Positions 6,278 through 32,562 of a stretch of 37,331 bases of DNA are shown here, piece by piece. A program made the position numbers and the translations under genes. Positions within the stretch are counted from its first letter, which is position 1. Each line of letters opens with the position of its first letter. The notes beneath the pieces are model-generated. The model saw nothing but the letters and a program-made list of their open reading frames with translations. It did not search any database and had not been told where the DNA came from. Origin of the DNA: Acidimicrobiales bacterium (GTDB taxonomy: Bacteria > Actinomycetota > Acidimicrobiia > Acidimicrobiales > JAHEJN01); assembly GCA_024638845.1 (NCBI GenBank), contig JAHEJN010000022.1:4878-42208 (forward strand). Direction: 5' to 3'.

Positions 6278-6510
6278 CGGCGTCGACACGGCAACAGATC
6301 GGCGAACATCGGGCCGACGACGTCGACCGGCTTTCCCCGATCGACGATGCCGACGCACTGGCCCCGGCCGAGCTGTTCGACACGAGCCGCCGCAACTTCG
6401 GTGGCACCTTCTCTCCGACCGTGCCCATCGGCATCGACGGCGATCACGTGTGTCTGTCCGTGGTCGATACGGCTAGCCCGTCAGGTCGAGCTGGCCCTCG
6501 CGCTCGATGA
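6274..6510 (+). CDS. Small hypothetical protein coupled to the glycosidase
   Basis: A 78-codon frame starts with ATG inside the glycosidase stop (ATGA overlap). The first ~65 residues have a protein-like composition, including LFDTSRRNFGGTFSPTVPIG. The last part becomes Arg/Pro-rich where it overlaps, by 38 bases, the 3' end of the convergent lipoprotein gene (stop at 6473). I recognise no family. It may be a real coupled gene or the remnant of a longer one whose 3' part was lost when the lipoprotein gene arrived. Confidence 0.4.
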   Translation: MTASTRQQIGEHRADDVDRLSPIDDADALAPAELFDTSRRNFGGTFSPTVPIGIDGDHVCLSVVDTASPSGRAGPRAR

Positions 6511-9244
6511 GCTCGAGCAGGTACTGGTCGGGAGTCGCGTAGAGCACCGAGCGGGCACATTCGGTGTCGTCGGCTCGGCCGCCGTCGCCGACGACGAAGG
6601 GGTCGACGCCGAAGCCCATGTCAGGGAGTCGCAACGGATCGGTGAACACCTCGATGGTGATCACGGTGGCGCCGTCTCCGGTCGGACAGTCGACTCGCTC
6701 GACGAGCCGGGCCCGGGCGAGGACGTCGCGTGGGATCGGCTGATCGCGCAGCGACTGCGGCACGCCACGGAGGCCGGGATCGAGGCTGCGCGCCTGCTTC
6801 ACGACGAGCCGCCCGGGGGTCGCCTCGCCCGAGCGGAGGGCAGGCCAGCCGTCGTCGACGGTCTTGAACTCGAAGTCGAGGGTGACCGTGTCGATCTGCT
6901 GGAGTGGGGGAAGGTCGGCGTTGATCTGCGCCCTCCAGAGCAACGTCACCGACTGCAGTTGGGCGAACAGCTCGGCAACTGCGTCATCGTCGAGCACGGG
7001 CTGGCCCGGGCTCAGCGTCGACGTGGCCCGGCGATCGGTGCGCAGTGAACCATCGGGCAGCTGCGACACCTCGATCACCTCGGGGAGCGACACCTCGGCG
7101 GGATCGGGGTTGGTGACGCTCACCGCCCCGGCCTGCACGTTGATGATCGCCGTCGCGGTGGCGTCGTCGCTGACTCCTTCGAGGAGGGTGAAGGTGGCCA
7201 CGCCGTTGTTGGCTTCGAGCTCGTCGTCGAATCGGGCGTGGACGACCACCGCCATCGCCCCGCTCAGGTGGTCGACGTTCTCCAGTCGACGTTCCTCGAA
7301 CGCCTCGAACCCCCAGTACGAGGCCCAGGTCTTCTTCAATGCCCATTCGACGTCGTGGTCACGGTCGCCCGGATCGGCGGCGGCGGTCGGGTCGAGATAG
7401 CCGGTGTTCGAGTCGTACAGGCCGGCGCCGCTGAAGCCCTCGATGTCCTCGACCGAGCTCGATGACCGGAAGCGCAGACCTTGGCTGTCGGCGTAGTCGC
7501 CGAAGTTCTCCTCGAGAGCGTCGGTGATGGCGTCGAGGACCGCCCGGTCGACGGGTTGATCACGCAGGAGTCGTTTGAAGCCGCCGGAGGCGATGATGTC
7601 GGCCATCGGGGTGCCGAAGGAGTAGGTGTCGATGAAGTCCTGGGCGACGGCACGATCGACGTCGTCGGGGTAGAAGGCCTCGAAGTCACCGAGCCCTTCG
7701 AGCAGGAGGAAGCGGATGCGGGCGTCGGCGACGAAGGCCTCGTTGGCCAGCATGGCGTCGAGCTGGCTCCGCACCATCACGAGATGCTCGACGTAGGGCG
7801 CCACCGTTATCGCGAGCGGCCGGTCCGGAGCGGTGACCCGGTCGGCGGCAAGCAGGGTGAGGAACCCCGCCGCCTTGCCCCCTACGATCGGCCGCCACGG
7901 CTCGATCTCGGCCTCGGAGTCGATGGTGTCGGCCAACTCGTCGAGAGCGACCACCGTCGGGATGTCATCGACGTCGACGGGAGTGACCCCGATGGGCTCG
8001 AGGGCGACGAGCGCCTGCCACTCGTCGTACTCCTCCCGAGAGATCGGCACCACCTCGAGGTGGTCGTCACCGCTGGCTCGCACGACGACGTGGGCGCGAA
8101 TGCGGGCCGCCTGGCGGATGCCGGGATCGTCGAGCAAGCCGCTCTGCGATGCGTTGGGGATGCTGCGGTTGCGAGCCAACAGGTTCACGTGGGCCAGCGG
8201 CGTCTGAGGCTCGGAAGTGAGCAGAGCGCTGGCCGGAGGAAGGTAGTCGGGCACGTTCTCGACGATCACGATGTCGGTGGCGATCGCGTCGGTCAGCCGC
8301 GCTCCGCCTTCCTCCACCAGCAACAGCCGGCCGACCGCGATGCCCTCGTTGTACACCCCGACCTCGCCGGGGGCAACGATCTCGCTGTACCGCACGATCC
8401 GATCGGCATACGGGAGTGCCCCGGCTGCCATCTGCTGAGCCAGGCGTTCCTGGGCGGGGGAGCGCACCACCCATTCCAGCGCGTCGCCGATCTCGGGGGG
8501 AACCGTCGCCGCAAGGCGTTGCATGAAGGCGGCGACGTCGGCCGCGTCGGGCTCGTCGGTGTACTCGAGTTGCACGAGCCAACGCGGGTTCCCGTCGACG
8601 TCGCTCTGCAGATGTACCAGCGAGCCCACCAGGTAGTTGCGCTCGGCGACGTCGAGCGCCTCGTCGTAGTAGTTCTGGGAGAACAGTCGAGGCCGGTCGG
8701 TGTAGCGGCTGTCGGCGAAGTAGAGGTCCAGCGGCAACTCGACGGGGTCGAGGCGCTCGGCCCAGGCGTAGATCTCGTCGATCGAGGCGAAGCGGTTGCC
8801 CGGCACCGGTTCGACATCGATGTTCGGTGCTCGCTGGCCGTTGAGCAATCGGAACCAGTACCACTCGTCGTGCAGTTCGTAGAAACCGCTGTCGAACCAG
8901 TGGATGCGGCCGTCGGGGTCGCCGAGCAGGTCGGGTATCGAGAACTTCACCACCGACTGGCCGTTCACGCCCGACTCGGCGAGCGCGAAGAACTCCGGAA
9001 CGGAGTCGATGGTCGGCACGGTGTGATCGTCGAATCCGTTCTCGTCGACGAACACCGGCACGTCCACCGTGACGATGGGGGTGGGGGTGGATTCGGTGCC
9101 GGTTTCGGGCGTCACTGACGGCGTCGGATCGGCGGGGTCGACGGCCGGCGGAGCAGATCCGGGCGCACCCGTCGCGGCGCATGCGGTGGTCAACACCACC
9201 ACACAGAGCCATGGCACGAGTCGGCGCCCGAAGAGGAGATTCAT
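6473..9244 (-). CDS. Secreted lipoprotein with phosphohistidine-like and PEP/pyruvate-binding (ATP-grasp) domains
   Basis: A 923-residue protein. Residues 1-22 form a lipoprotein signal ending LTTAC with Cys22 as the likely lipidated residue (the -3 position is Thr, slightly atypical). A Pro/Thr-rich linker of about 35 residues follows, typical of surface anchoring. Residues ~285-365 resemble the phosphohistidine swivel domain of dikinases, with TPLAHVNLLARNRSIPN and His352 at the expected place. Residues ~450 to 880 resemble the PPDK/PEP synthase N-terminal domain, with VGGKAAGFLTLLA, a glycine/serine loop RFRSSSSVEDIEGFSGAG at 591-608, and a terminal VKQARS element. The domain order is the reverse of soluble dikinases. 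Similar lipoproteins exist in other bacteria but their reaction is unknown to me. ATP is normally absent outside the membrane, so a phosphotransfer role there is puzzling. Confidence 0.8.
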   Translation of the reverse strand: MNLLFGRRLVPWLCVVVLTTACAATGAPGSAPPAVDPADPTPSVTPETGTESTPTPIVTVDVPVFVDENGFDDHTVPTIDSVPEFFALAESGVNGQSVVKFSIPDLLGDPDGRIHWFDSGFYELHDEWYWFRLLNGQRAPNIDVEPVPGNRFASIDEIYAWAERLDPVELPLDLYFADSRYTDRPRLFSQNYYDEALDVAERNYLVGSLVHLQSDVDGNPRWLVQLEYTDEPDAADVAAFMQRLAATVPPEIGDALEWVVRSPAQERLAQQMAAGALPYADRIVRYSEIVAPGEVGVYNEGIAVGRLLLVEEGGARLTDAIATDIVIVENVPDYLPPASALLTSEPQTPLAHVNLLARNRSIPNASQSGLLDDPGIRQAARIRAHVVVRASGDDHLEVVPISREEYDEWQALVALEPIGVTPVDVDDIPTVVALDELADTIDSEAEIEPWRPIVGGKAAGFLTLLAADRVTAPDRPLAITVAPYVEHLVMVRSQLDAMLANEAFVADARIRFLLLEGLGDFEAFYPDDVDRAVAQDFIDTYSFGTPMADIIASGGFKRLLRDQPVDRAVLDAITDALEENFGDYADSQGLRFRSSSSVEDIEGFSGAGLYDSNTGYLDPTAAADPGDRDHDVEWALKKTWASYWGFEAFEERRLENVDHLSGAMAVVVHARFDDELEANNGVATFTLLEGVSDDATATAIINVQAGAVSVTNPDPAEVSLPEVIEVSQLPDGSLRTDRRATSTLSPGQPVLDDDAVAELFAQLQSVTLLWRAQINADLPPLQQIDTVTLDFEFKTVDDGWPALRSGEATPGRLVVKQARSLDPGLRGVPQSLRDQPIPRDVLARARLVERVDCPTGDGATVITIEVFTDPLRLPDMGFGVDPFVVGDGGRADDTECARSVLYATPDQYLLELIEREGQLDLTG

Positions 9245-18294: not shown

Positions 18295-18702
18295 TTAGCT
18301 GCGGCGGGCGTCGATCTCCGCTCTGCGCCGCGCGGCGGCGGGAACGCCGGCGATGCCCCAATCGGTGGGTGGTACTTCGTTGATGCGCAGCCGGGTGCGT
18401 TCGACGGGCACGCCGACGATCTCGGCCACCAAGGTCGAGACCTGTTCGATGAGTGCCGTGTGCTGTTCGACCGGCCGGCCTTCGAGGAGGTCGAGCGTGA
18501 TGAACGGGGCCTGCTCGCCCGAGTCGGCGATGGGCACGCCACCGACGGCGAAGCTGTCGGCGGGGAGCTCGTGGACCTGGGTGCGGATGCGATCGATGGG
18601 CGACTCGGTGAGCTCGGCGAACAACGCGGCGGTGCGGGTGAGCAGCTCGCGCTTGGTGGCAGCATCGACGGGGCCGGCGAGATCGACGCGTAGGAACGGC
18701 AT
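18295..18702 (-). CDS. Fused (double-length) tautomerase superfamily protein
   Basis: A 135-residue protein starting MPFLRVDL, so Pro2 becomes the N-terminal catalytic proline after Met removal. It is about twice the length of 4-oxalocrotonate tautomerase and contains two beta-alpha-beta units. The first ends in RIRTQVHELPADSFAVGGVP and the second repeats the pattern as RTRLRINEVPPTDWGIAGVP. Only the first unit has an N-terminal proline, as in the fused members of the superfamily (cis-CaaD and malonate semialdehyde decarboxylase groups). Its start overlaps the SDR stop (TGATG), placing it in the aldolase/dehydrogenase operon, where isomerising an unsaturated keto acid is the likely job. Confidence 0.8.
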   Translation of the reverse strand: MPFLRVDLAGPVDAATKRELLTRTAALFAELTESPIDRIRTQVHELPADSFAVGGVPIADSGEQAPFITLDLLEGRPVEQHTALIEQVSTLVAEIVGVPVERTRLRINEVPPTDWGIAGVPAAARRRAEIDARRS

Positions 18703-19457
18703 CAGCCGATTCCTCGTCGGCGGCCGAGGTCGAGCGAGAGGGTTGCGCCGTGGAGCCCGGAAGCTTCTGGTGCCAATAGCAGCTCGACGGCCCACGCCAC
18801 CTCGTCGACGGTGGTGAGCCGACCCAGGGGCGAACCGGCTCGGTACTCGTCGAGCACCTGGTCGGCTGTCGTCTCGCCGCCTCGCCGATCGGCGATGCGT
18901 TGCGCGATGGCGGTCATGCGCGGCGATTCGACCGGGCCCGGTGCGATCAGATGCACGGTCACGCCGTCGGGACCGTAGCGGTCCGACAACGAGCGAACGA
19001 GGTTTCCGAGGGCGGCGTTGGTCATGCCCGCCAGAGGAGCGTTCGGGGTGGGCTCGAAGCCGTAGTGCCCGCCGAGAACCACGAGCCGCGACCCAGGTTC
19101 GAGATGGTCCTGCACGCCCCGGATGAGACGGAGGAGGCCGCCGATCTTGCCGTTCATGCCGGCCTCGAGCTCGTCGCCGGTGAGGGTGTCGATCGTGCCG
19201 CTGCCGGGCAGGCCGGCCGCCTGGACGGCGATGCGAACCGGCGCATCGCACGCCGCCGCGATGGTGTCGATCGCGCCGTCGGACTGGAGATCGGCGGCCA
19301 GGGGCACGATCTGTTCGTCACCGTCGGCCAGCGCCGCGAGCGCATCGGCCGAACGAGCGACGGCGATCACGCGTAGGCCGGCTGAGCGAAGACGGGCAAC
19401 GATCGCCGACCCGAGCGCGCCGGTTGCCCCGACGACCACGCCCAGCCCGGCGGTCAT
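18702..19457 (-). CDS. SDR-fold protein lacking the usual catalytic residues
   Basis: A 251-residue Rossmann protein of the short-chain dehydrogenase superfamily. The cofactor loop [13 protein letters not shown] (8-20) is intact and VARSAD suggests NADP binding. At the active site, however, the Tyr-x3-Lys position reads Ala143-Gly-Met-Thr-Asn147, and the preceding Ser position reads LGGHYG. The usual acid-base machinery is therefore missing. It may act by another mechanism, bind a nucleotide only, or use a displaced residue such as Tyr132. The gene overlaps the aldolase by four bases (ATGA) and the tautomerase by one, so it is made with the meta-pathway enzymes. Confidence 0.8.
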
Positions 19458-20506
19458 CCCGTCGGAGCAGGTTGGGTGGCGGCGGCCTTCTCGGCGGCGA
19501 GCTCGGCGGCGATGGAGATGATCTGGTCCTCCTGGCCACCGACGAGCTTGTGCTCACCGCACCGCATGAGGATGTCGGCGCCACGCACGTCGTAGTCGGC
19601 GGCCGCCCGGTAGGCGTGCTTGAGGAAGCTCGAGTACACGCCGGCATACCCCATCACCAGCGCCAGCCGATCGATCACGCATTCGCCGTCCATCACGGGA
19701 CGCACGACGTCTTCCGCGGCGTCCATCAGGGCCAGCACGTCGATGCCGGTGCGAATGCCGAGCCGGTCACACACCGCGGCGAACACCTCGTTGCGGGTGT
19801 TGCCCGCACCGGCGCCGAAGCCACGGGTCGAGCCGTCGATCTGGACGGCACCGGCCCGAACGGCCAGCACCGAGTTGGCCACCGCGATGCCGAGGTTGTC
19901 GTGACCGTGGAACCCCACCTGAGCCTCGCCGCCCACTTCGGCAACGACCGCGGCGACGCGTTCGGTGACGTCGTCCATGATCATGGCACCGGCCGAGTCG
20001 ACCACGTACGGGCACTGGCAACCGGCGTCGACCATGATGCGGGCCTGTTCGGCGAGCTTCTCCGGCGAGACGGTGTGGGCCATCATCAAGAATCCCACCG
20101 TCTCGAGCCCGAGCTCGCGGGCCAGACCGAAGTGCTGGATCGACACGTCGGCCTCGGTGCAGTGGGTGGCGACCCGTACGAGACCGACCCCGATGTCGAC
20201 GCAGGCGCGGATGTCGTCCTTGGTGCCGATGCCCGGGACCATGAGCGCCGCGATCTTCGCTTGCGTCGCGGTCTCGACAGCGGCGGCCATGAGCTCACGT
20301 TCGTCGACGAGGGAGCGGCCGTAGTTGTAGCTCGAACCGCCGAGGCCATCACCGTGGGTCACCTCGATGACGGGCATGCCCGCCGCATCGAGGGCGCCGA
20401 CGATCGAACGCACGTGTTCGACGGTGAACTGATGGCCCTTGGCGTGTGAGCCGTCGCGCAGGGCAGAGTCGGTCATGCGGATGTCGAGGGAGTCGGAGTA
20501 CGGCAT
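19454..20506 (-). CDS. dmpG: 4-hydroxy-2-oxovalerate aldolase
   Basis: A 350-residue class II aldolase of the DmpG/MhpE/BphI family that splits 4-hydroxy-2-oxovalerate into pyruvate and acetaldehyde. The N-terminal [13 protein letters not shown] carries the catalytic Arg and metal-binding Asp, and [15 protein letters not shown] carries the two metal-binding histidines. Length and the C-terminal communication domain are standard. The acetaldehyde dehydrogenase gene lies immediately upstream and overlaps by one base. In this family the two proteins form a complex that channels acetaldehyde between active sites. It completes the meta-cleavage route whose hydratase and decarboxylase lie in the operon at 23401-32562. 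Confidence 0.96.
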
Positions 20507-21411
20507 CAGTTGGCTCCCACGGTGGTGGTGGAGACGGTGTCGAGGTGTCGGGCGATCTGGTTGCCGACCTGGGTGGCGGCGGCGGTCATGATGTCGAGGT
20601 TGCCCGCATACGGCGGGAAGAAGTCGCCGGCGCCCTCGACCTCGACGAAGATCGCCACGCGATGGCTGCCGTCGGCGGTGACCGAGAACTGCGGCTCGAC
20701 GGTGGGCCTGTAGCCGGGAACGTAGCCCTGCACGGTGGCGACCACGTCGGCGATGGACGTGCGGATCGCGTCATGATCGGCATCGTCGGGGATCTCGCAG
20801 AAGATGGTGTCGCGCATGATGAGGGGCGGGTCGGCCGGGTTGAGGATGATGATCGCCTTCCCCTTGGCGACACCGCCGCACACCTCGATGGCCCGGCTGG
20901 TGGTGCGGGTGAACTCGTCGATGTTGGCCCGCGTGCCCGGACCGGCCGACACCGACGACACGGTGGCGACGATCTCGGCGTAGGGCACCGAAACGACCCG
21001 GCTCACGGCATACACCATCGGGATGGTGGCCTGGCCGCCGCAGGTGACCATGTTGACGTTCATGAGGTCGAGGTGCTCGGTGAGATTCACCGGGGGCACC
21101 ACATAGGGCCCGAGCGCAGCCGGGGTCAGATCGATGGCGCGAATGCCCGCCTCTTCGTACCGGGGTGCATTCTCGCGATGCACGTAGGCGCTGGTGGCCT
21201 CGAACACGAAGTCGGGGAGCTCGGGTCGGGCGAGCAGCCAGTCGACGCCCTCGTGGCTGGCTTCGAGACCGTGGCTGCGGGCCCGGGCCAGGCCAACGCT
21301 CTCGGGATCGACACCGACCATGTAGCGCGGTTCGATGTCGGCCGAGCTCAACAGCTTGTGGAGCAGATCGGTGCCGATGTTGCCCGAGCCGACGATGGCG
21401 GCGGTGCGCAT
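20506..21411 (-). CDS. dmpF: Acetaldehyde dehydrogenase, acylating
   Basis: A 301-residue enzyme converting acetaldehyde, CoA and NAD+ to acetyl-CoA and NADH. The NAD-binding start is [13 protein letters not shown], the catalytic cysteine lies in [14 protein letters not shown], and the sequence matches the DmpF/MhpF/BphJ family throughout. It is the first gene of the minus-strand operon with the aldolase, a degenerate SDR and a fused tautomerase, all joined by start/stop overlaps. An AGAGGA ribosome site lies 10-11 bases before the ATG. Expression is probably governed by the twin palindromes at 21485-21521. Confidence 0.96.
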
Positions 21412-23400: not shown

Positions 23401-24309
23401 ATGGGAGTTCTCCGGCTTTCTCACGTCGACATCAGCGCCCCCGACCTCGATCTCGCGGCTGCGTACTACACGCAGGTGATGGGGCTCGACATCAGCGATC
23501 GCACCGATGACCGCATCTTCTTCAAGTGCTGGGACGAGCGCGACCACCACTGCCTGGCCGTCCGCTACGACCCCCGGGTCGGCATCGATCGCTTCGCGTT
23601 CAAGGTCGAACACGAGGACGATCTCGACCGGTTCGAGAACGCCGTACAGGCCTACGGCCACGCCGTCGAGCGCATCAGCAAGGGCGAGGAGGTCGGTCAG
23701 GGCGAGAGCATCCGCTTCGCCACCCCCTCGGGTCACGAGATGGAGCTCGTCCACGACATCACCAAGGTCGGCGGACGGCTTCCGTTGGTGAACCCGTGGC
23801 CGGTGCCGCAGGGCCTGGTCGGCATCGCCCCTCCCCGCATCGACCATCTGCTCATCCACGCCGAGGAAGTCGGCGAGATGGTGCACTTCATGCAGACCTG
23901 CTTCGGGTTCTTCCTCACCGAGCAGGTGCTCAGTGGCGAAGGGCACCAGATGGGGGCCTTCCTCCAGCGCTCGGGTCGACCCCACGACATCGCGATCATC
24001 CAGGGTCCGAACGGGGCACTGCACCACTTCTCGTTCTGGCTCGACGACTGGGACCACGTGCGTCGAGCTGCCGACATCCTGGCCTACAACGCCATCAGCA
24101 TCGACATCGGCCCCACCCGCCACGGCATCACCCGGGGCAACACCATCTACTTCTTCGACCCCATGGGCACCCGGAACGAGGTCTTCACCGGCGGGTACCG
24201 GCCCGACCCGGATTTTCCGACCATCACCTGGACGGAAGACAATCTGGGTCGGGCCATCTTCTACTACGAGGGCAAGGACAACGGTCGCTTCCTGACGGTG
24301 CACACGTGA
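23401..24309 (+). CDS. Extradiol (catechol 2,3-) dioxygenase, class I, first copy
   Basis: A 302-residue two-domain VOC protein close in length to XylE (307). It should cleave a catechol next to the hydroxyls with O2, giving a 2-hydroxymuconic semialdehyde-type product. Iron ligands appear as His149 (RIDHLLIH), His208/209 (LHHFSFW) and Glu260 (NEVFTGGY). Second-sphere residues match XylE too: His195 in RPHDIA, His241 in TRHGITRG and Tyr250 in IYFFDP. It is the first gene of an operon that continues through the dikinase, Rieske enzyme and meta-pathway genes. Substrate preference is not readable. A second, roughly half-identical copy follows. Confidence 0.93.
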   Translation: MGVLRLSHVDISAPDLDLAAAYYTQVMGLDISDRTDDRIFFKCWDERDHHCLAVRYDPRVGIDRFAFKVEHEDDLDRFENAVQAYGHAVERISKGEEVGQGESIRFATPSGHEMELVHDITKVGGRLPLVNPWPVPQGLVGIAPPRIDHLLIHAEEVGEMVHFMQTCFGFFLTEQVLSGEGHQMGAFLQRSGRPHDIAIIQGPNGALHHFSFWLDDWDHVRRAADILAYNAISIDIGPTRHGITRGNTIYFFDPMGTRNEVFTGGYRPDPDFPTITWTEDNLGRAIFYYEGKDNGRFLTVHT

Positions 24310-24364
24310 GCACGATCGAGATCCGGCGAGCGAAGGGACGCGGCCTGCGTGGCCGGGGAACGCA

Positions 24365-25279
24365 ATGAGCGGCATCTTGCGGCTCTCGCACGCTGAGGTG
24401 CGGGTGCCCGACCTCGAGCTGGCGCTGGCCTATTACACGGAGGTCGTCGGCCTCATCGAGACCACCCGTGACGGTGATCGGGCCTTCCTCAAGGGGTGGG
24501 ACGAGCACCAGCACCATTCGCTCATCCTGAAGTCGGCGCCCACCTACGGGCTCGAGTCGCTCGGCTTCAAGGTGCACGAGGCATCCGACCTCGACGACCT
24601 CGCGGCCAAGATCGAGCAGGCCGGCATCGAGACCACCCGCCACGCAGCCGGTGACCTCGGCCCCGGCTCGGGCGACACCGTCCGCTTCCGCGCACCGAGC
24701 GGGCACACGGTCGACCTCGTCCACGGCATGGACCAGGTCGGCAACGCGATGCCGCTGCTCAACCCGCCCATCGGCCCCGACAACCTCACCGGCATGGCTC
24801 CGCCCCGGCTCGACCACATCTTCTTGATGGCCGAAGACGTCGATGGCGTCACCGACTTCTTCCGCGACGTGCTCGGCTTCCGCCTCACCGAACAGATCAT
24901 GAGCGACGACGGCTACCAGCTCGCCACCTTCCTCGAACGGTGCCACAGCACCCACGACATCGCCTTCCTCACCGGCCCCGACGGCGGCTTCCACCACGTG
25001 GCCTTCTGGGTCGACGACTGGAACGAGCTGCGCATGGGCGCCGACAAGTGCGCCTATCACGGGGTCACCGTCGACGCCGGCCCCACCCGTCATGGTGCCA
25101 CCCGCGGCTGTGGCCTCTACTTCTTCGACCCGGCCGGCAACCGCAACGAGCTGTACACCGGCGGCTACTGGTTCGACCCCGACGACGAACCCACCACCTG
25201 GACCGAAGCCGAGATGGGTCGGGCCATCTTCTACTACCAGGGCCAGCTCAACCCGGCCTTCATGACGGTGCATTCATGA
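24365..25279 (+). CDS. Extradiol (catechol 2,3-) dioxygenase, class I, second copy
   Basis: A 304-residue paralogue of the preceding enzyme, with the complete iron site: His151 (RLDHIFLM), His210/211 (FHHVAFW) and Glu262 (NELYTGGY). The second-sphere His197, His243 and Tyr252 are also kept. By eye the two copies agree at about half their positions; the C-terminal FFDP...GGY region is best conserved and the substrate-contact region differs (KCWDERDHH versus KGWDEHQHH). A 55-base spacer separates them. The pair probably handles two differently substituted catechols, or an inhibitory product of one copy is handled by the other. Confidence 0.93.
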   Translation: MSGILRLSHAEVRVPDLELALAYYTEVVGLIETTRDGDRAFLKGWDEHQHHSLILKSAPTYGLESLGFKVHEASDLDDLAAKIEQAGIETTRHAAGDLGPGSGDTVRFRAPSGHTVDLVHGMDQVGNAMPLLNPPIGPDNLTGMAPPRLDHIFLMAEDVDGVTDFFRDVLGFRLTEQIMSDDGYQLATFLERCHSTHDIAFLTGPDGGFHHVAFWVDDWNELRMGADKCAYHGVTVDAGPTRHGATRGCGLYFFDPAGNRNELYTGGYWFDPDDEPTTWTEAEMGRAIFYYQGQLNPAFMTVHS

Positions 25280-25325
25280 GCCGCACGGAGCGAGTGACAA
25301 CGAGCCAGAAGGCGACGATCGACCG

Positions 25326-26399
25326 ATGAGTGCCTCGACCCCCACTCCCGGCAGCCGGCCCGAAGCCCGGGTCGACGCACCGCTCTATCTCGCCCGCTGG
25401 CGCGAGAAGGAGGCTGCGGCCCGCACCGGCGACGGCACCACCGATACCGACGACGATTCATCGCTGCCGCTCTACCTGCGTCAGTTCCGGGCCAAGGCCG
25501 CGGCCCCGGCGACCACGGCGCCCGAGACCGCGCTGTGGGAACGAGCGGGCCTGCCCACTCAGCGAGCGCTCACCGAAGACAGCCTCAACAAGGAGATCTC
25601 GGCCCCGCCCGAGGCCCGCCAGGTCCTGCACAACGACGTGTACCTCATCCGCCACGGCGAGACCCAGGGCTACTCCACCGACTCGGGCCTCACCCCGCAG
25701 GGTGCCTGGCAGGCTCACACCTACGGCCACACGATGGCCAAGCGCATCAAGAGCGGCGAGACCGTCGTGTTCCGCCATGCGGCCACGAACCGGGCCCGCG
25801 AGACGGCAGAGCACGTCCATCGTGGCCTGGTCGACGGGCTGGTGCAGTTCGAGAAGGACATCACCATCGTCGAGCCCGAGCCGATGCTCGAGTTCCGCAA
25901 CTTCCAGTTCGCCACGCCGGGCGGACTCAAGGACGTCACCGCGGCGTTCCGCGAGTTCTACGCCGTGCGCGAGGAGTACGAGCGCCGCCGCACCGGCGAT
26001 CGCCCGTTGTGGCTCGTGGAGATGGACCGGTTCTGGAGCACCCAACAGGGAGGTGGCGACCCGATTCGTCACTGGCTCACCATTCCCATGCTCCACTTCG
26101 AGCCGCCGAGCATGACGGTTCGCCGGTTCTGGGCCGGCATCAATCGTCTGGGCGACCAGTTCCCCGGCGCTCGCCTGGCCATCGCGACCCACTCGGGGTG
26201 CATCCGCGCCTTCGCCGTGGCCGCCCTCGGGTACGACCCGGGCGAGCCGTACAACACCGAGCACGTGCGGGTGAAGATCATGCAGGGTCGCGAGGAAGCG
26301 CTGGTCGGTTACCGAAATCGCATCCAGGAGACCCGCGTTCCCGACATCGACTGGCTGCCGCCATGGGCCATCGACGAGACTTGGGAGCCGACGAGCTGA
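25326..26399 (+). CDS. Histidine phosphatase superfamily protein with N-terminal repeat extension
   Basis: A 357-residue protein. The core (about 103-345) is a branch-1 histidine phosphatase: LIRHGETQG with His110 as the phospho-accepting residue, the downstream AATNRARETAEHV helix, and ATHSGCIRAF with His289. It carries a ~100-residue N-terminal extension, rich in Ala/Thr/Asp, with two copies of a short helix-like motif, PLYLARWREKEAAAR (19-33) and PLYLRQFRAKAAAPA (48-62). Placed directly before the dikinase genes, it is the best candidate to remove a phosphate from an aryl phosphate intermediate. It could instead clear phosphorylated side products. It has no signal peptide and is cytoplasmic. 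Confidence 0.85.
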   Translation: MSASTPTPGSRPEARVDAPLYLARWREKEAAARTGDGTTDTDDDSSLPLYLRQFRAKAAAPATTAPETALWERAGLPTQRALTEDSLNKEISAPPEARQVLHNDVYLIRHGETQGYSTDSGLTPQGAWQAHTYGHTMAKRIKSGETVVFRHAATNRARETAEHVHRGLVDGLVQFEKDITIVEPEPMLEFRNFQFATPGGLKDVTAAFREFYAVREEYERRRTGDRPLWLVEMDRFWSTQQGGGDPIRHWLTIPMLHFEPPSMTVRRFWAGINRLGDQFPGARLAIATHSGCIRAFAVAALGYDPGEPYNTEHVRVKIMQGREEALVGYRNRIQETRVPDIDWLPPWAIDETWEPTS

Positions 26400-26415
26400 T
26401 GGAAGGAGCGCGCGG

Positions 26416-27594
26416 ATGTGCAAACAGTGTCCCGTGGTCGATTGGGACGCCGCGTTCGCGACCATCGAGTCGTTCGGCGGAGTTCCCGCCGTTGGGGGAG
26501 TCATGAGTGATCTGATCGTCTGGTACGACCGGTACGACCGCGAGCAGAAACCACGGGTCGGCGGCAAGAACGCCAGCCTCGGCGAGCTGATGATGGCCGA
26601 CCTGCCGGTGCCACCGGGCTTCGCGGTGACCGTCGAGGCCTACCAGCAGATCTGGCGCAACAAGACCCTGGCCGACGCCGTGAACGCCGAGCTGCGGTCC
26701 ATCGACCACGGCGACGTCCGGGCCAATCGGGCCACCGCCGATCGCATCCGCGCCCTGATCGAGGCCGAGCCCATGGCGCCCGAGGTGGTCGAGGCGATCA
26801 CCGACAGCTACCAGGCGCTGTGCACGTTCTGCAATGTCGACGACCTTCCTGTTGCCGTCCGCTCCTCGGCCACCGCCGAAGACCTTCCCGACGCATCCTT
26901 CGCCGGTCAGCAGGACACGTACCTCTGGATCCACGGCGCCAACGCCGTGCTCGCCCACGTTCGCAAGTGCTGGTCGTCGCTGTTCACCGATCGGGCCATC
27001 GCCTATCGGCACCAGATGGGCTACCTGCACCACAACCTCTCCATGTCGGTCGGTGTGCAGAAGATGGTCGATCCGGTCTGCTCGGGGGTGGCGTTCACGC
27101 TGAACCCCACCAACGGTGATCGCAGCCAGGTGTGCATCGATGCGTCGTGGGGCCTGGGCGAGGCCGTGGTGTCGGGCGAGGTGACGCCCGACAACTTCCT
27201 GGTCGACAAGGTCATCAAGGAGATCGTGAGCCGCAAGATCTCCAACAAGCACATCGAGATGCGCCTCGGTGACGACGGGGAGGTCCACACCGTCGAGCTC
27301 GATCCCGTGCGGGCCAACCAGCCGTGCCTCTCCGACGACGACCTGCGCAACGTCGCCGCGCTCGCCCGTCGGGCCGAGAAGCACTACGGGTGTCCGCAGG
27401 ATGTCGAATGGGCCATCGACCGGCACCTGCCCGAAGGGTTCAACGTGCTGCTGTTGCAGAGCCGGCCCGAGACGGTGTGGTCACAGAAGCCCGTGTCGCC
27501 GATCGCCAGCGCCAAGGACCCGATGGCGTCGATCGTGTCGACGCTGTTGGCGCCGATGCACACCAAGTCCGAAGAGAAAACAGAAGAAACATGA
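26416..27594 (+). CDS. ATP-grasp subunit of a split dikinase (PPDK N-terminal type)
   Basis: A 392-residue protein made almost only of the PEP synthase/PPDK nucleotide-binding domain. Motifs are VGGKNASLGE (48-57), the Gly/Ser loop PVAVRSSATAEDLP followed by FAGQQDTYL (145-170), SGVAFTLNP (223-231), WGLGEAVVSG (245-254) and the closing LLLQSRPETVW (345-355). In such enzymes this domain binds ATP and passes its beta-phosphate to a histidine on another domain, releasing AMP and phosphate. That histidine is on the next gene's product. An AAGGAG site seven bases upstream favours ATG 26416; ATG 26506, with GGGGGAG close by, would give 362 residues. The N-terminal CKQC stretch is then an extra. Confidence 0.9.
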   Translation: MCKQCPVVDWDAAFATIESFGGVPAVGGVMSDLIVWYDRYDREQKPRVGGKNASLGELMMADLPVPPGFAVTVEAYQQIWRNKTLADAVNAELRSIDHGDVRANRATADRIRALIEAEPMAPEVVEAITDSYQALCTFCNVDDLPVAVRSSATAEDLPDASFAGQQDTYLWIHGANAVLAHVRKCWSSLFTDRAIAYRHQMGYLHHNLSMSVGVQKMVDPVCSGVAFTLNPTNGDRSQVCIDASWGLGEAVVSGEVTPDNFLVDKVIKEIVSRKISNKHIEMRLGDDGEVHTVELDPVRANQPCLSDDDLRNVAALARRAEKHYGCPQDVEWAIDRHLPEGFNVLLLQSRPETVWSQKPVSPIASAKDPMASIVSTLLAPMHTKSEEKTEET

Positions 27595-27613
27595 ATTCCA
27601 GGGGGAGAACCAC

Positions 27614-29428
27614 ATGACCGATCGCCGCTTTCCGAGCCCGTTCGAGGTCGAGCCGCCCGAGGGCGACATCGACGGGTGGGAAGAGCTCTACCCGTACTCG
27701 GTGACCTTCAGCGAGGGCCGCCGCGAGTACGAAGAGGCCCGTTTCTGGTTCCAGGACTCCATGCACTGGGGCTGGGCCATGACGCCGTGGGACTCGGCCC
27801 ACCTCGAGTACGCCATCGCGTCTCTCAGTCAGTTCAACAGTCGTCACTACCGCATTCCCCCGGCCGACGGCATCGACTTCCGCGTGCTCTACGGCTATCC
27901 CTACTTCTCACCGGTGGGCGTCGACCCCGAGAAGATCGAGGCCCGGGTGCCCGAGTTCATGGAGCGGGCGGGCCACTACTTCATGAACTGGGACGACCTC
28001 TACGCCAACTGGTTGGTGAAGGTGAAGGAGAACATCGACGCCATCGACGCCATCGACTTCTCGCCCCTCCCCGAGATGGAGGATCTCGAAGTCATCACCA
28101 GCGGACGAGGCATCGGGACGGGCTGGGACATCCAGCAGCAGTACCACCAGTTCAAAGACCTGTGTCTCAAGGTGTGGCAGTACCACTTCGAGTTCCTCAA
28201 CCTCGGCTACGCCGCCTACCTCGACTACTTCGGATTCTGCAAACAGGCGTGGCCGACCATTCCCGATCTGGCCATCGCCCGCATGGTGGCCGGCGTCGAG
28301 GTCGACCTGTTCAAGCCCAACGAGAAGCTGAAGGATCTCGCCCACCTGGCCGTCGACTCGGGCCTGGCACGTGTCTTCGACAGCCCCGACGACGTCGCGG
28401 GCATCGCGGCCGCGCTGGGCTCGAGTGACAAGGGCAAGGCGTGGCAGGCGGCGTGGGACGATGCCGCCGACCCCTGGTTCAACTTCAGCTCCGGTACCGG
28501 CTTCTACTACTTCGACAAGACCTGGCTCGACTACCCCGAGATCCCCTACGCGTTCGTGCGCGACTACATCACCAAGATCGAAGACGGCGTCGACATCAGC
28601 CGCCCCATCGAGCAGGTGATCGCCGAGCGCGACCGCATCGTCGCCGAGTACACCGACCTGTTGCTCACCGAGGAGGACAAGGAGACCTTCGCCGGCAAGC
28701 TCGGTCTGGCTCGCACGGTGTTCCCCTACGTCGAGAACCACAACTTCTACATCGAGCACTGGACCATGAGCCGCTTCTGGCGCAAGCTCCGCGAGCTCGG
28801 TGCGGTGTTGGCCAAGGAAGGCTTCGTCTCGGATCCACAGGATGTCGTCTACTTCCGCCGCGACGAGCTCGACGAGGTCCTGTGGGACATCTACTCGGCA
28901 TGGGCGGTCAACGCCCCGAGTGCCGGCACCACGTACTGGCCGCCCAAGATCGAACAGCGCAAGGCGTGGATCGACAGCTTCAGCAAGTGGAAGGCGCCCA
29001 AGGCGCTCGGTGAGCCACCCGAGGTCATCACCGAGCCGTTCACCATCATGTTGTGGGGCATCACCTCCGACTCGGTGAACATGTGGCTCGGCTCCGACGA
29101 CGAGGGCGCCGGCATCACCGGCATGTCGGCATCGCCGGGAGTGGCCGAGGGTCCGGCCCGGCTCGTGTTCAACGCCGACGACATCGGCGACGTGCTCGAC
29201 GGCGAGATCCTGGTGGCTCCGATCACCGCGCCCAGCTGGGCGCCGGTGTTCCCCAAGATCAAGGCCTGTGTCACCGACATCGGCGGGATGATGAGCCATG
29301 CGGCCATCGTCTGCCGTGAATACGGCGTGCCCGCGGTGACCGGCACCGGTTTCGGTACCGACAAGATCAGCAACGGCGACATGATCCGGGTCGACGGCTC
29401 GGCCGGCACCGTCGAGATCTTGAGCTGA
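27614..29428 (+). CDS. Acceptor and phosphohistidine subunit of a split dikinase (phenylphosphate synthase/Rph-like)
   Basis: A 604-residue protein with AGGGGGAG just upstream of its ATG. The last ~100 residues (about 505-604) are the swiveling phosphohistidine domain: GMSASPGVAEGPARLV, TDIGGMMSHAAIVCREYGVPAV with catalytic His562, and a closing GDMIRVDGSAGTVEIL. The first ~500 residues are rich in Trp, Tyr and Phe and do not resemble the PEP/pyruvate TIM barrel. They hold the place occupied by the acceptor domain in rifampin phosphotransferase and in the large subunit of phenylphosphate synthase. With the preceding ATP-grasp subunit it should phosphorylate a small molecule, giving AMP and phosphate. 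In this operon a phenolic acceptor is the simplest idea. It lacks the C-terminal barrel needed for PEP synthesis. Confidence 0.88.
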   Translation: MTDRRFPSPFEVEPPEGDIDGWEELYPYSVTFSEGRREYEEARFWFQDSMHWGWAMTPWDSAHLEYAIASLSQFNSRHYRIPPADGIDFRVLYGYPYFSPVGVDPEKIEARVPEFMERAGHYFMNWDDLYANWLVKVKENIDAIDAIDFSPLPEMEDLEVITSGRGIGTGWDIQQQYHQFKDLCLKVWQYHFEFLNLGYAAYLDYFGFCKQAWPTIPDLAIARMVAGVEVDLFKPNEKLKDLAHLAVDSGLARVFDSPDDVAGIAAALGSSDKGKAWQAAWDDAADPWFNFSSGTGFYYFDKTWLDYPEIPYAFVRDYITKIEDGVDISRPIEQVIAERDRIVAEYTDLLLTEEDKETFAGKLGLARTVFPYVENHNFYIEHWTMSRFWRKLRELGAVLAKEGFVSDPQDVVYFRRDELDEVLWDIYSAWAVNAPSAGTTYWPPKIEQRKAWIDSFSKWKAPKALGEPPEVITEPFTIMLWGITSDSVNMWLGSDDEGAGITGMSASPGVAEGPARLVFNADDIGDVLDGEILVAPITAPSWAPVFPKIKACVTDIGGMMSHAAIVCREYGVPAVTGTGFGTDKISNGDMIRVDGSAGTVEILS

Positions 29429-29457
29429 ACGAACGAGAACGACGAGGAGGTCCCCCG

Positions 29458-30732
29458 ATGATGACCCAGGAACAGAACGACGAGCTCACCCAGGTAGGCC
29501 CCGGTACACCGATGGGCGACGTCCTTCGTCACTACTGGTACCCGGTGTGCTTCGAGCGCGAGCTCGAGGAGTTCCCGGTGAGGGGCGTGCGCCTGCTCGG
29601 CGAGAACTTTGCCGTGTTCAAGACCCCCGACGGCCAGTACGGCATCGTCGACGAGCGGTGTCCGCACCGCGGCGCCTCGCTCGTGTACGGCATCGTCGAG
29701 GACGGTGGTCTGCGCTGTGGCTATCACGGCTGGAAGTTCGACAACGACGGCACCTGCGTGGAGATCCTCGCCGAGCCCGACTCGTCGCCCGCGTTCCGCG
29801 AGAAGGTGTGTGTCCGGGCCGGACGGGCCCAGGCGTTGGGCGGGTTGATCTTCGCCTACATCGGTGAGAGCCCGGCTCCTGAGCTGCCCCGGTACGACGG
29901 CTTCGTCATGGACGGCGTACGCGACATCGGCCATTCCATGCTGCCGTGCAGCTGGCTCCAGATCATGGAGAACGCCGTCGATCCGTATCACGTCGAGGCG
30001 TTGCACGGGAACTACTTCGCCTTCCTGGCCGAGTGGCAGGGCTTCGACATGCCCTCGTCGTTCAAGAACAAGCACGTGAAGGTGGCCTTCGACCCGTTCG
30101 AGCACGGCATCATCAAGCGTCGCCTCCTGGTGGGCCAGAGCGAGGATGACGACGACTGGAAGATCGGTCACCCGCTGGTCTTCCCGTACCAGATGTGGGT
30201 GGGCGGCAACGGGGTGTTCCAGATGCAGATCCGCGTTCCCGTCGACGACGAGACCACCTGGATGCTCTTCTACACCGTGCACGCACCCGATGGCGCCGAG
30301 CCGGCCGAGCAGATGTACCCGGTCGACTACGAGTACGAGTGGCTCGACGCCAAGGGCAACCACATCGTCGACTACATCGAGGGTCAGGACATCATGGCCT
30401 GGGTCACCCAGGGCAAGGTGGCCGATCGCACCACCGAGAACATCACCAAGAGCGACATGGGGGTGGTGGCCCTGCGCCGCATGTTCCGTGACTCGATCGA
30501 AGCCGTGAAGGAGGGCCGCGACCCGGTGGCGGTGGTACGCCAACCGCACGACATCATCACGTTGCCCCTCGAGCGGTTCAAGTTCGGGCGGGGCCCGGAG
30601 TTCGCGACCGACTGGATCAACCGCGGCTCGATGCGGTACTCGCCCCAGGCCGACGACTTGAAGAAACTGCACATCAACGCGGCCGCTGCGGTGGCCGGTC
30701 GCGGCATCGCCGAAACGGCGCCCGGTCAGTGA
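29458..30732 (+). CDS. Rieske non-heme iron oxygenase, alpha subunit
   Basis: A 424-residue oxygenase. The Rieske cluster site is CPHRG plus CGYHGW (Cys68, His70, Cys87, His90). The mononuclear iron site is NAVDPYHVEALHG with Asp175, His178 and His183. The sequence style (MTQEQNDELTQVGPGTPMGDVLRHYWYPV) is that of the phthalate 4,5-dioxygenase-like alpha-only branch, whose members hydroxylate rings or remove O-methyl groups. GAGGAGG lies upstream of ATG 29458. No beta subunit, ferredoxin or reductase is in the window, so electrons must come from elsewhere. The position after the dikinase suggests it acts on, or near, the phosphorylated aromatic. Confidence 0.93.
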   Translation: MMTQEQNDELTQVGPGTPMGDVLRHYWYPVCFERELEEFPVRGVRLLGENFAVFKTPDGQYGIVDERCPHRGASLVYGIVEDGGLRCGYHGWKFDNDGTCVEILAEPDSSPAFREKVCVRAGRAQALGGLIFAYIGESPAPELPRYDGFVMDGVRDIGHSMLPCSWLQIMENAVDPYHVEALHGNYFAFLAEWQGFDMPSSFKNKHVKVAFDPFEHGIIKRRLLVGQSEDDDDWKIGHPLVFPYQMWVGGNGVFQMQIRVPVDDETTWMLFYTVHAPDGAEPAEQMYPVDYEYEWLDAKGNHIVDYIEGQDIMAWVTQGKVADRTTENITKSDMGVVALRRMFRDSIEAVKEGRDPVAVVRQPHDIITLPLERFKFGRGPEFATDWINRGSMRYSPQADDLKKLHINAAAAVAGRGIAETAPGQ

Positions 30733-31508
30733 CCGTCGACCTGGCTGGCTGGGCCGGCTATCTGCAGGCCGCGGTCGACAACCGGCGCGAGGTACAGGGC
30801 ATCGAAGCCCAGATCGGGTCGCTCTCGATCGACGACGCGTATGCCATCCAGGCGGCGCTCATCGAGAATCGGTTGGCGGCGGGCGACTCGCTGGCCGGCG
30901 CCAAGCTCGGGCTGACCTCGAAGGCCAAGCAAGAACAGATGGGCGTCGATGAACCGGCCTACGGCTGGGTGCCCGCATCGACGGTGCTCGGTGACGACGC
31001 CGAGGTGGTGCTCGGAGAGCTGATCCATCCCCGGGTCGAGCCCGAGTTCGTGTTCCTGATGGGCCAGGCGTTGGCCGGCGCCGATGCGACCGCCGAGCAG
31101 GTGCTCGATGCAACCGAAAGCGTCGTCGGTGGCATCGAGGTGATCGATTCACGCTACGAGGCGTTCAAGTTCACGCTGCCCGATGTGATCGCCGACAACA
31201 CGTCGGCGGCGCGGGTTGCCATCGGCGCCTACGGCGTCGGTCCGCGCGAGGTCGACCTTCGCGCCGTCACCTGCACGTTCACGATCGACGATGAAGACGT
31301 CGGCTCGGCAACAGGGGAGGCGCTCCTCGGCGATCCGGCCGAATGCGTCGCCATGCTCGTGCGCCATCTCGCCAAGTACGACCGCGGGCTCGAAGCGGGC
31401 TGGCTGGTGATGGCGGGAGCACCGCTCGGCGCCCAACCCCTGTCGGTCGGTACGGTCGCCACGGCCAGCTACAGCCACTTCGGTTCGGTTACCGTGCGGG
31501 GCGTCTAG
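30729..31508 (+). CDS. dmpH: 4-oxalocrotonate decarboxylase (FAH/hydratase superfamily)
   Basis: A 259-residue protein. GAKLGLTSKAKQEQMGVDEPAYGWV and the metal-site region HPRVEPEFVF and GGIEVIDSRYEAF are characteristic of the decarboxylase branch (XylI/DmpH) more than the hydratase branch. It would convert 2-oxo-3-hexenedioate to 2-hydroxypenta-2,4-dienoate and CO2. The GTG start overlaps the Rieske stop (GTGA). In known pathways it forms a complex with the hydratase, here two genes downstream. The two are paralogues, so assignment to decarboxylase rather than hydratase rests on these motifs. Confidence 0.85.
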   Translation: MTVDLAGWAGYLQAAVDNRREVQGIEAQIGSLSIDDAYAIQAALIENRLAAGDSLAGAKLGLTSKAKQEQMGVDEPAYGWVPASTVLGDDAEVVLGELIHPRVEPEFVFLMGQALAGADATAEQVLDATESVVGGIEVIDSRYEAFKFTLPDVIADNTSAARVAIGAYGVGPREVDLRAVTCTFTIDDEDVGSATGEALLGDPAECVAMLVRHLAKYDRGLEAGWLVMAGAPLGAQPLSVGTVATASYSHFGSVTVRGV

Positions 31509-31537
31509 CCCTCCGACTCCAGCGAGACAGGAACGAC

Positions 31538-31771
31538 ATGCCACTGGTCAACGTGCACATGGGCAAAGGCCGCTCCGTCGACGACAAGCGGGCGATGATG
31601 GACGCGATCACCGAGGCGATCGTCGACTCGATCGGCGCGCCGCGCGACTCGGTGCGCGTGTGGATCACCGAGATGGACGACACCGACTTCATGGCCGGCG
31701 GAGAGCTGCTCGCCGACAAGCGGGTCCGGCTGGCGGCCGAAGCGCACGCCGCCCCCGAGGATCGGGTGTGA
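31538..31771 (+). CDS. dmpI: 4-oxalocrotonate tautomerase
   Basis: A 77-residue protein starting MPLVNVHMGKGRS. After Met removal, Pro1, Arg11, Arg39 and Phe50 fall exactly on the four key active-site positions of classical 4-oxalocrotonate tautomerase. A C-terminal tail of about 15 residues beyond the usual 62 is Ala-rich. It isomerises 2-hydroxymuconate to 2-oxo-3-hexenedioate. The ATG follows an ACAGGA ribosome site, and the stop overlaps the GTG of the hydratase gene. Its presence implies that ring-fission product passes through the dehydrogenase branch, though no such dehydrogenase gene is seen here. Confidence 0.94.
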   Translation: MPLVNVHMGKGRSVDDKRAMMDAITEAIVDSIGAPRDSVRVWITEMDDTDFMAGGELLADKRVRLAAEAHAAPEDRV

Positions 31772-32562
31772 CCGACGCCGCGCTGCTGCAGCAGGCGGCC
31801 GATGCGCTCTGGGAGGCCGAGTCGTCGGGGGTGCCGACCGGCCCGATCCGCGACGTCGTGGGAACCGCGACCGACATCGACACGGGCTACGCCGTGCAAC
31901 AGATCAACACCGATCGCCACGTCGTCGCCGGTCGCCGCATCAGCGGCCGCAAGATCGGGGTGACCTCCAAGGCGGTTCAGCAACAGATCGGCGTCGATCA
32001 GCCCGACTTCGGCACGCTGTTCGTCGACACCGAATACGGCGATGGCGTCGACATCGCAGCCTCACGCTTGATCCAGCCCAAGGCCGAGGCCGAAGTGGCT
32101 CTGGTGCTCGAACACGATCTCAATCGCGCGCCGCACGGCTTCGCCGAGATCGTTCGGGCTGTCGGCTTCGCCTTGCCGTCGATCGAGGTGGTCGACAGTC
32201 GGATCATCGACTGGGACATTCGCATCGTCGACACAGTGGCCGACAATGCCAGCTGTGGCCTGTACGTCGTGGGGTCGAAACCGGTGCCGTTGTCGGCTGT
32301 CGACCTCCGCACGGTCCCCATGTCGATGTCGGTGAACGGATCCGAGGTCTCCTCGGGCGTGGGTGCAGCTTGCCTCGGCAACCCGCTGCATGCGGCCCGC
32401 TGGCTGGCCGACACGTTGTGCGAGCGCGGTATTCCGCTCTGCGCCGGCGACGTGTTGATGACCGGAGCGCTCGGGCCCATGACCGTCCTCGAAACCGGCG
32501 ACGAGGTCGTCGCCACCTTCGGCGACCTCGGAACGGTGACCACCCGTCTTGTTGCGGAGTGA
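31768..32562 (+). CDS. dmpE: 2-oxopent-4-enoate hydratase
   Basis: A 264-residue protein of the DmpE/XylJ/MhpD branch. It has ISGRKIGVTSKAVQQQIGVDQPDFGTLF, the metal-binding KAEAEVALVLEHDL and PSIEVVDSRI segments, and DNASCGLYVVG. It adds water to 2-hydroxypenta-2,4-dienoate, giving 4-hydroxy-2-oxovalerate, the substrate of the aldolase encoded at 19454-20506. The GTG start overlaps the tautomerase stop (GTGA), showing tight coupling. It is the last clear catabolic gene of the operon. Confidence 0.93.
   Translation: MTDAALLQQAADALWEAESSGVPTGPIRDVVGTATDIDTGYAVQQINTDRHVVAGRRISGRKIGVTSKAVQQQIGVDQPDFGTLFVDTEYGDGVDIAASRLIQPKAEAEVALVLEHDLNRAPHGFAEIVRAVGFALPSIEVVDSRIIDWDIRIVDTVADNASCGLYVVGSKPVPLSAVDLRTVPMSMSVNGSEVSSGVGAACLGNPLHAARWLADTLCERGIPLCAGDVLMTGALGPMTVLETGDEVVATFGDLGTVTTRLVAE

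Follow-up and report, generated by a model that had tools for sequence, protein, structure and literature searches.

A conserved gene cluster of Acidimicrobiia predicted to degrade simple phenols aerobically through a phosphate tag, a Rieske oxygenase and meta-cleavage

A 37,331-nucleotide stretch of DNA from an Acidimicrobiales bacterium (GenBank assembly GCA_024638845.1, contig JAHEJN010000022.1, positions 4,878 to 42,208 of the forward strand), hereafter the window, carries at 23401-32562 nine co-directional and closely packed plus-strand genes that encode two extradiol dioxygenases (ED1 and ED2), a histidine phosphatase (HPase), the two subunits of a split ATP-dependent dikinase (DikB and DikA), a Rieske oxygenase and three enzymes of the lower meta pathway. 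With a probability of roughly 0.6, these genes specify an aerobic pathway that begins by tagging a simple phenol with phosphate; the Rieske enzyme would then hydroxylate the phosphate ester, and removal of the phosphate would leave catechol for meta-cleavage. We infer that the substrate is phenol itself or another simple phenol, for example a cresol, that the steps run in this order and that the Rieske enzyme acts on the ester. In this scheme, ATP would be loaded by DikB and its β-phosphate moved via the swivel histidine of DikA to the phenolic hydroxyl, with aryl phosphate and AMP as products. Served by an electron-transfer partner encoded elsewhere, the Rieske oxygenase would hydroxylate the tagged ring adjacent to the phosphate, and HPase would then free catechol. 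The first product may alternatively be the 2,3-dihydrodiol phosphate, whose dephosphorylation could set off rearomatisation, so that a dihydrodiol dehydrogenase would not be needed. Catechol would be cut by ED1/ED2, and tautomerase, decarboxylase, hydratase, aldolase and acetaldehyde dehydrogenase would lead to central metabolism. An earlier sequence-only reading of this DNA had described one co-directional operon with these enzymes, and the genes and families were found as claimed, with intact catalytic motifs.

The window kinase belongs to the two-component phenolic dikinases, of which HpeHI, CreHI and PpsAB have been characterised (PMC12167813), and phosphorylation of a phenolic substrate is predicted from its sequence. 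As in these enzymes, the ATP-grasp domain (PPDK_N in DikB) and the swivel/substrate domains (in DikA, of PRK08296 type with a C-terminal PEP-utilizers mobile domain, PF00391) lie on separate proteins. The swivel of phenolic dikinases reads T/SxxGGxxxH, with Met in place of the regulatory Thr of phosphoenolpyruvate (PEP) synthase (PMC12167813); window DikA has both traits (TDIGGMMSH at 554), and the motif is found in all 89 homologs. A role in PEP synthesis was rejected, the kinase being split and without the C-terminal domain of PEP synthase. Against reference kinases assigned from gene context, DikA shares 52.7% identity with a cre-type relative on a Rhodococcus plasmid, 45.9% with a pps-type relative of Azoarcus KH32C and 42.1% with an hpe-type relative of Rhizobium, while DikB is 50% identical to the creI type and 48% to the PpsB type, a homology that upholds the split dikinase of the sequence-only reading. 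In the dikinase trees, the DikA proteins encoded beside a Rieske gene form essentially one clade of 55, separate from the kinases adjoining cytochrome P450 genes (one clade with a support of 100, including two cre-type clusters from Rhodococcus plasmids) and also set apart from most carboxylase-associated (pps, hpe) relatives. An N-terminal CxxCP extension of DikB (window 26416-26502) is present in 40/57 Rieske-context frames, on account of which the start at 26416 is favoured over that at 26503, and was not seen in the DikB relatives displayed from carboxylase and P450 contexts.

The same kinase could in principle act on aniline, making a phosphoramidate that the Rieske enzyme would turn into catechol, but we regard this phosphate analogue of the γ-glutamylanilide route as highly improbable. 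Aerobic aniline pathways do share the layout of the window cluster: in the γ-glutamylanilide route, activation by a tag is followed by a Rieske oxygenase, catechol and extradiol cleavage, although the tag is a glutamyl group attached by a glutamine synthetase-like enzyme and the Rieske oxygenase is of another class. Phosphoramidates break down fast, however, and would hardly need a dedicated phosphatase. A PpsAB relative from Desulfatiglans anilini accepts aniline as well as phenol for phosphorylation (PMC7500099), but the α subunit of this synthase has just 27% identity to Pps-α (PMC7500099), as against 46-53% between window DikA and its Pps- and cre-type relatives.

The Rieske enzyme consists of PF00355 and LigXa_C domains, with a weak VanA_C match, and an AlphaFold2 (AF2) model agrees with the fold (pLDDT 88). 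Its catalytic residues are intact (CPH...CGYH, iron ligands H178, H183 and D311, bridging D175), and the metal ligands are all kept across 33 aligned orthologs. The closest solved relatives are phthalate and isophthalate dioxygenases, and the nearest, phthalate 4,5-dioxygenase (PDO), shares class and iron ligands with it. In PDO, phthalate is anchored by Ser182, Arg207 and Arg244 (PMC10511449), whereas V179, M/A198 and I/V236 take these places in all 33 aligned family members; the pocket is therefore made for another substrate, and a function in phthalate degradation was rejected, since the carboxylate anchors are missing. The catalytic domain also has five invariant basic residues (H206, K220, R221, R222 and H238), which are candidates for phosphate binding. 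In many relatives (e.g. L044:13158-13433), though not in the window, the gene immediately following that of the Rieske enzyme encodes a conserved small protein (~80 residues) that has CxxC pairs and no Pfam match.

A catechol phosphate would result whether the Rieske enzyme hydroxylates the ring at the position beside the phosphate or strips off an O-methyl group ortho to it. The main rival, absent from the sequence-only reading and in our view unlikely, is a guaiacol (2-methoxyphenol) route, in which guaiacyl phosphate would undergo Rieske O-demethylation ortho to the phosphate, HPase would release catechol and extradiol cleavage would follow. Dicamba O-demethylase provides a parallel, acting ortho to a carboxylate, and both families matched by the Rieske C-terminal domain, LigXa_C and, weakly, VanA_C, include O-demethylases. 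Catechol would moreover be made directly, leaving a dihydrodiol dehydrogenase unneeded, and none is conserved among the neighbours examined; a short-chain dehydrogenase/reductase (SDR) considered for this step, as in the standard cis-diol route, is close to the dikinase genes in no locus other than L008, L054, L057 and the window, and was set aside as not general. HpeHI, in addition, takes vanillin and acetovanillone (PMC12167813). On the other side, the closest solved relatives of the Rieske enzyme are ring dioxygenases, and no formaldehyde-detoxification gene is conserved among the neighbours examined.

HPase shows the traits of branch 1 histidine phosphatases, an RHG motif and a second catalytic His (HSG), the latter invariant in 27 orthologs, and Foldseek matched it to PhoE/CobC/RosC-like phosphatases. 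Its orthologs share 49-70% identity with the window protein. At its N-terminus (window 25326-25500) lie two PxYLxxYxxR motifs joined by a variable linker, both present in 44/46 orthologs and modelled by AF2 as short helices with low-to-moderate confidence; it may be speculated that these motifs and the CxxCP extension of DikB are docking elements. Both ED1 (364 bits) and ED2 (350 bits) pass the cut-off of TIGR03211 (catechol 2,3-dioxygenase; 320 bits) with an intact extradiol signature.

A scan with DikA yielded 80 homologous loci from other species. The Rieske gene adjoins DikA in 52 of these, and the order ED1-ED2-HPase-DikB-DikA-Rieske is usually retained on contigs of sufficient length, with a divergent IclR regulator in 35 loci and a HAD hydrolase in 28. 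The carriers are chiefly metagenome-assembled genomes (MAGs) of Acidimicrobiia, together with Nocardioides agariphilus and two Kineosporia strains, and a chance neighbourhood was rejected, as the block recurs in dozens of species. Among 296 genomes of the window's class, orthologs of HPase (E<=1e-40) and of the Rieske enzyme (E<1e-130) occur in an identical set of 16 (~1e-26, uncorrected for kinship), 15 of which also contain a DikA match. The association of these genes in other genomes, which the sequence-only reading had offered as a check on its proposal, has thus survived. The cluster is nearly absent from the window's own order (one truncated copy); its distribution is therefore patchy, and it is probably mobile. 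Toluene-4-monooxygenase-type enzymes produce phenol or cresol, and their genes are enriched in carriers (4/16 vs 5/280; Fisher p 6e-4, uncorrected for kinship) and likewise adjoin Rhodococcus cre-type clusters; no canonical phenol hydroxylase of the PF02332 type was found in the window genome.

The conservation of HPase, which ranks among the most conserved members and shares its 16 genomes with the Rieske enzyme, suggests an obligatory step. It thereby makes quite unlikely an angular attack, in which the Rieske enzyme would dioxygenate the phosphate-bearing carbon and its neighbour, phosphate would be lost spontaneously to leave catechol, and HPase would clear surplus aryl phosphate or reset the pool. 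Rieske enzymes are known to attack diaryl ethers, sulfonates and carbazole in this way, expelling a leaving group, and the mechanism would suit a cluster in which no dihydrodiol dehydrogenase is conserved.

Two unusual loci bear on the substrate. In L145:7480-14660, the Rieske-phosphatase-extradiol cluster is retained and the dikinase is a distant pair in A-B order, 46% identical to that of the window; the function was therefore kept, not merely the neighbour. Its DikB and ED2-HPase frames appear broken or fused, perhaps through assembly errors. L163:3380-8620, in a genome of the same class as the window, has a kinase that branches within the Rieske clade but is flanked by UbiD, UbiX and HAD genes, a setting that resembles phenylphosphate carboxylation and by analogy points to a simple phenol. 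With swaps in both directions, the common ground of the partners seems to be what the kinase makes, probably a phosphorylated simple phenol. Ring hydroxylation is favoured over guaiacol demethylation because of the UbiD swap, in a setting known for phenol and with a kinase of the same clade, because of the missing conserved formaldehyde gene and because phenol-producing monooxygenases are enriched in carriers. It is also very unlikely that the genes are neighbours without a common pathway, with the aryl phosphate made for another use and the Rieske and extradiol enzymes acting on unphosphorylated aromatics. Gene neighbourhood by itself cannot prove metabolic order, and extradiol genes are not adjacent in the Kineosporia loci, but HPase, Rieske enzyme and DikA co-occur strictly, the dikinase was replaced inside the otherwise retained L145 cluster, and haloarchaea have an independent dikinase-Rieske-phosphatase set.

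Several points weigh against the phosphate-tag route proposed here. The similarity between the Rieske enzyme and PDO (~29%) is too remote to separate ring hydroxylation from O-demethylation, and the cluster has no conserved gene for a dedicated reductase or ferredoxin; a Fer2 protein of the genome (L181) was considered as the Rieske reductase and left unassigned as a partner, its sequence and neighbour resembling PaaE/PaaD. Four genomes, three of them from one family, account for the monooxygenase enrichment. MAG contigs make up most of the loci, and the labels of several are doubtful; L145, with its possible frameshifts, and L163, a contig of 15 kb, both stem from draft MAGs. In the Kineosporia loci, dikinase and Rieske genes stand without adjacent HPase and extradiol genes, and in the Pseudonocardiaceae locus L058 the extradiol and HPase genes are located in another operon with a second, highly divergent dikinase.

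The genes of the cluster are separated by 55, 46, 16, 19, 29, -4, 29 and -4 bases, in order; with the minus-strand genes at 18295-21411 added, the 4-oxalocrotonate branch of catechol meta-cleavage is covered (Table 1).

Table 1. Genes of the predicted phenol degradation cluster and of the neighbouring minus-strand group in the window.
Feature	Coordinates	Strand	Basis
ED1, catechol 2,3-dioxygenase (type I extradiol)	23401..24309	+	TIGR03211 363.9 bits, extradiol signature
ED2, catechol 2,3-dioxygenase paralogue	24365..25279	+	TIGR03211 349.9 bits, extradiol signature
HPase, histidine phosphatase, proposed aryl-phosphate phosphatase	25326..26399	+	PF00300, RHGE at 109, His (HSG) at 289
DikB, ATP-grasp subunit of two-component dikinase (HpeI/CreI/PpsB type)	26416..27594	+	PF01326 1e-113
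DikA, substrate-binding and swivel (phospho-His) subunit (HpeH/CreH/PpsA type)	27614..29428	+	PRK08296-type, PF00391, motif, tree
Rieske non-heme iron oxygenase, phthalate-dioxygenase-like single alpha subunit	29458..30732	+	PF00355 + LigXa_C
DmpH-like 2-oxo-3-hexenedioate decarboxylase	30729..31508	+	TIGR03218 best match, under cut-off
4-oxalocrotonate tautomerase (4-OT)	31538..31771	+	PF01361; PRK02220 above cut-off
DmpE-like 2-oxopent-4-enoate hydratase	31768..32562	+	PRK11342/TIGR03220 best matches, under cut-off
Acetaldehyde dehydrogenase (acylating), lower meta pathway	20506..21411	-	TIGR03215 above cut-off; also in several related loci
4-hydroxy-2-oxovalerate aldolase, lower meta pathway	19454..20506	-	TIGR03217 above cut-off
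SDR dehydrogenase	18702..19457	-	PF13561
Tandem two-domain 4-OT-family tautomerase, approximate start	18295..18720	-	Two tautomerase stretches, 7-66 and 72-133

Three further observations concern the surroundings of these genes and of their relatives. In one branch of the clusters, a conserved protein of unknown family, with no Pfam match, is encoded divergently from ED1 (L050:4945-5742 and equivalents). The second operon of the Pseudonocardiaceae locus (L058:450-7026) encodes, besides the divergent dikinase pair, both extradiols, the histidine phosphatase and a protein resembling cobalamin-independent methionine synthase, and is possibly a methyltransferase-based demethylation branch. On the minus strand of the window, 6473-9244 encodes a large protein that has a lipoprotein-like signal sequence and matches PPDK_N (ATP-grasp) weakly; in an apparently exported protein, such a PEP synthase-like domain is odd.

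No pathway with this gene set was found in the open-access literature (subscription journals and preprints lay outside the scope), in agreement with the sequence-only reading, and the cluster adds a new version to phosphate-tagged phenol catabolism rather than founding a new kind. The 4-cresol cre system (CreHI, P450, ferredoxin, reductase and phosphohydrolase) resembles it in its split phenolic dikinase, with ~50-53% identity between the window genes and cre-type genes of Rhodococcus plasmids, and in that an aryl phosphate is oxidised aerobically and dephosphorylated later. However, the cre P450 oxidises a methyl group, whereas the window cluster has no P450 and its kinase falls outside the P450 clade; cre-type clusters contain aldehyde dehydrogenase, SDR, ferredoxin and HD-domain genes, where the window has extradiols and a histidine phosphatase. 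The suggestion that the Rieske enzyme takes the role of the P450 therefore holds only loosely: the window cluster ends in catechol meta-cleavage and has no conserved alcohol/aldehyde branch, so that the ring (or an O-methyl group) should be the oxidation site, and the cre analogy is partial. PpsAB with PpcABCD offers a homologous kinase pair (46-48%) and probably a similar phenol substrate, but is anaerobic, has the A-B gene order and uses UbiD-type carboxylation instead of oxygenation; UbiD/UbiX-type carboxylase genes are absent from the window and were found beside one nested relative, L163. The Hpe pathway is aerobic, has a homologous kinase (HpeHI) and likewise loses its phosphate tag later to a phosphatase, but proceeds through a biotin carboxylase, a NagD-like HAD phosphatase (HpeD) and CoA steps (PMC9618137), where the window has a histidine phosphatase. 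A biotin-dependent carboxylase and a HAD phosphatase are absent from the window and present in the hpe-type example on a Rhizobium plasmid.

A second combination of phosphate tag and Rieske oxygenase is found on plasmids of Haladaptatus, Natrinema and Natribaculum (L176/L180, L177 and L178), where a distant dikinase pair occurs with an α-β Rieske oxygenase, an aldehyde dehydrogenase and a metallophosphoesterase. Only a stretch of 121-191 residues of the haloarchaeal Rieske α subunit aligns with the window enzyme (28-31% identity), and this set is apparently independent of the bacterial one. The aldehyde dehydrogenase suggests methyl oxidation, which would bring the haloarchaeal set nearer than the window cluster to a Rieske enzyme in the place of the P450. 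Somewhat short of even odds, and thus tentatively, Rieske oxygenases that require an aryl phosphate may constitute a new class in aromatic catabolism, evolved at least twice (as single-α PDO-like enzymes, mainly in Actinomycetota, and as α-β enzymes in haloarchaea), each with its own phosphatases, and docking through PxYLxxYxxR and CxxCP may channel the tagged intermediate in the bacteria.

The phosphate-tag routes characterised so far are few, namely pps, cre, hpe and the aniline variant, and why these pathways attach a phosphate is still an open question (PMC12167813). A conserved Rieske version, if true, would mean that a phosphate tag can also be of use to oxygenases acting on the ring. 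The set of kinase, oxygenase and phosphatase would then be usable for lignin and phenol conversion, and uncultured Acidimicrobiia would gain a route for phenol that does without a canonical phenol hydroxylase.

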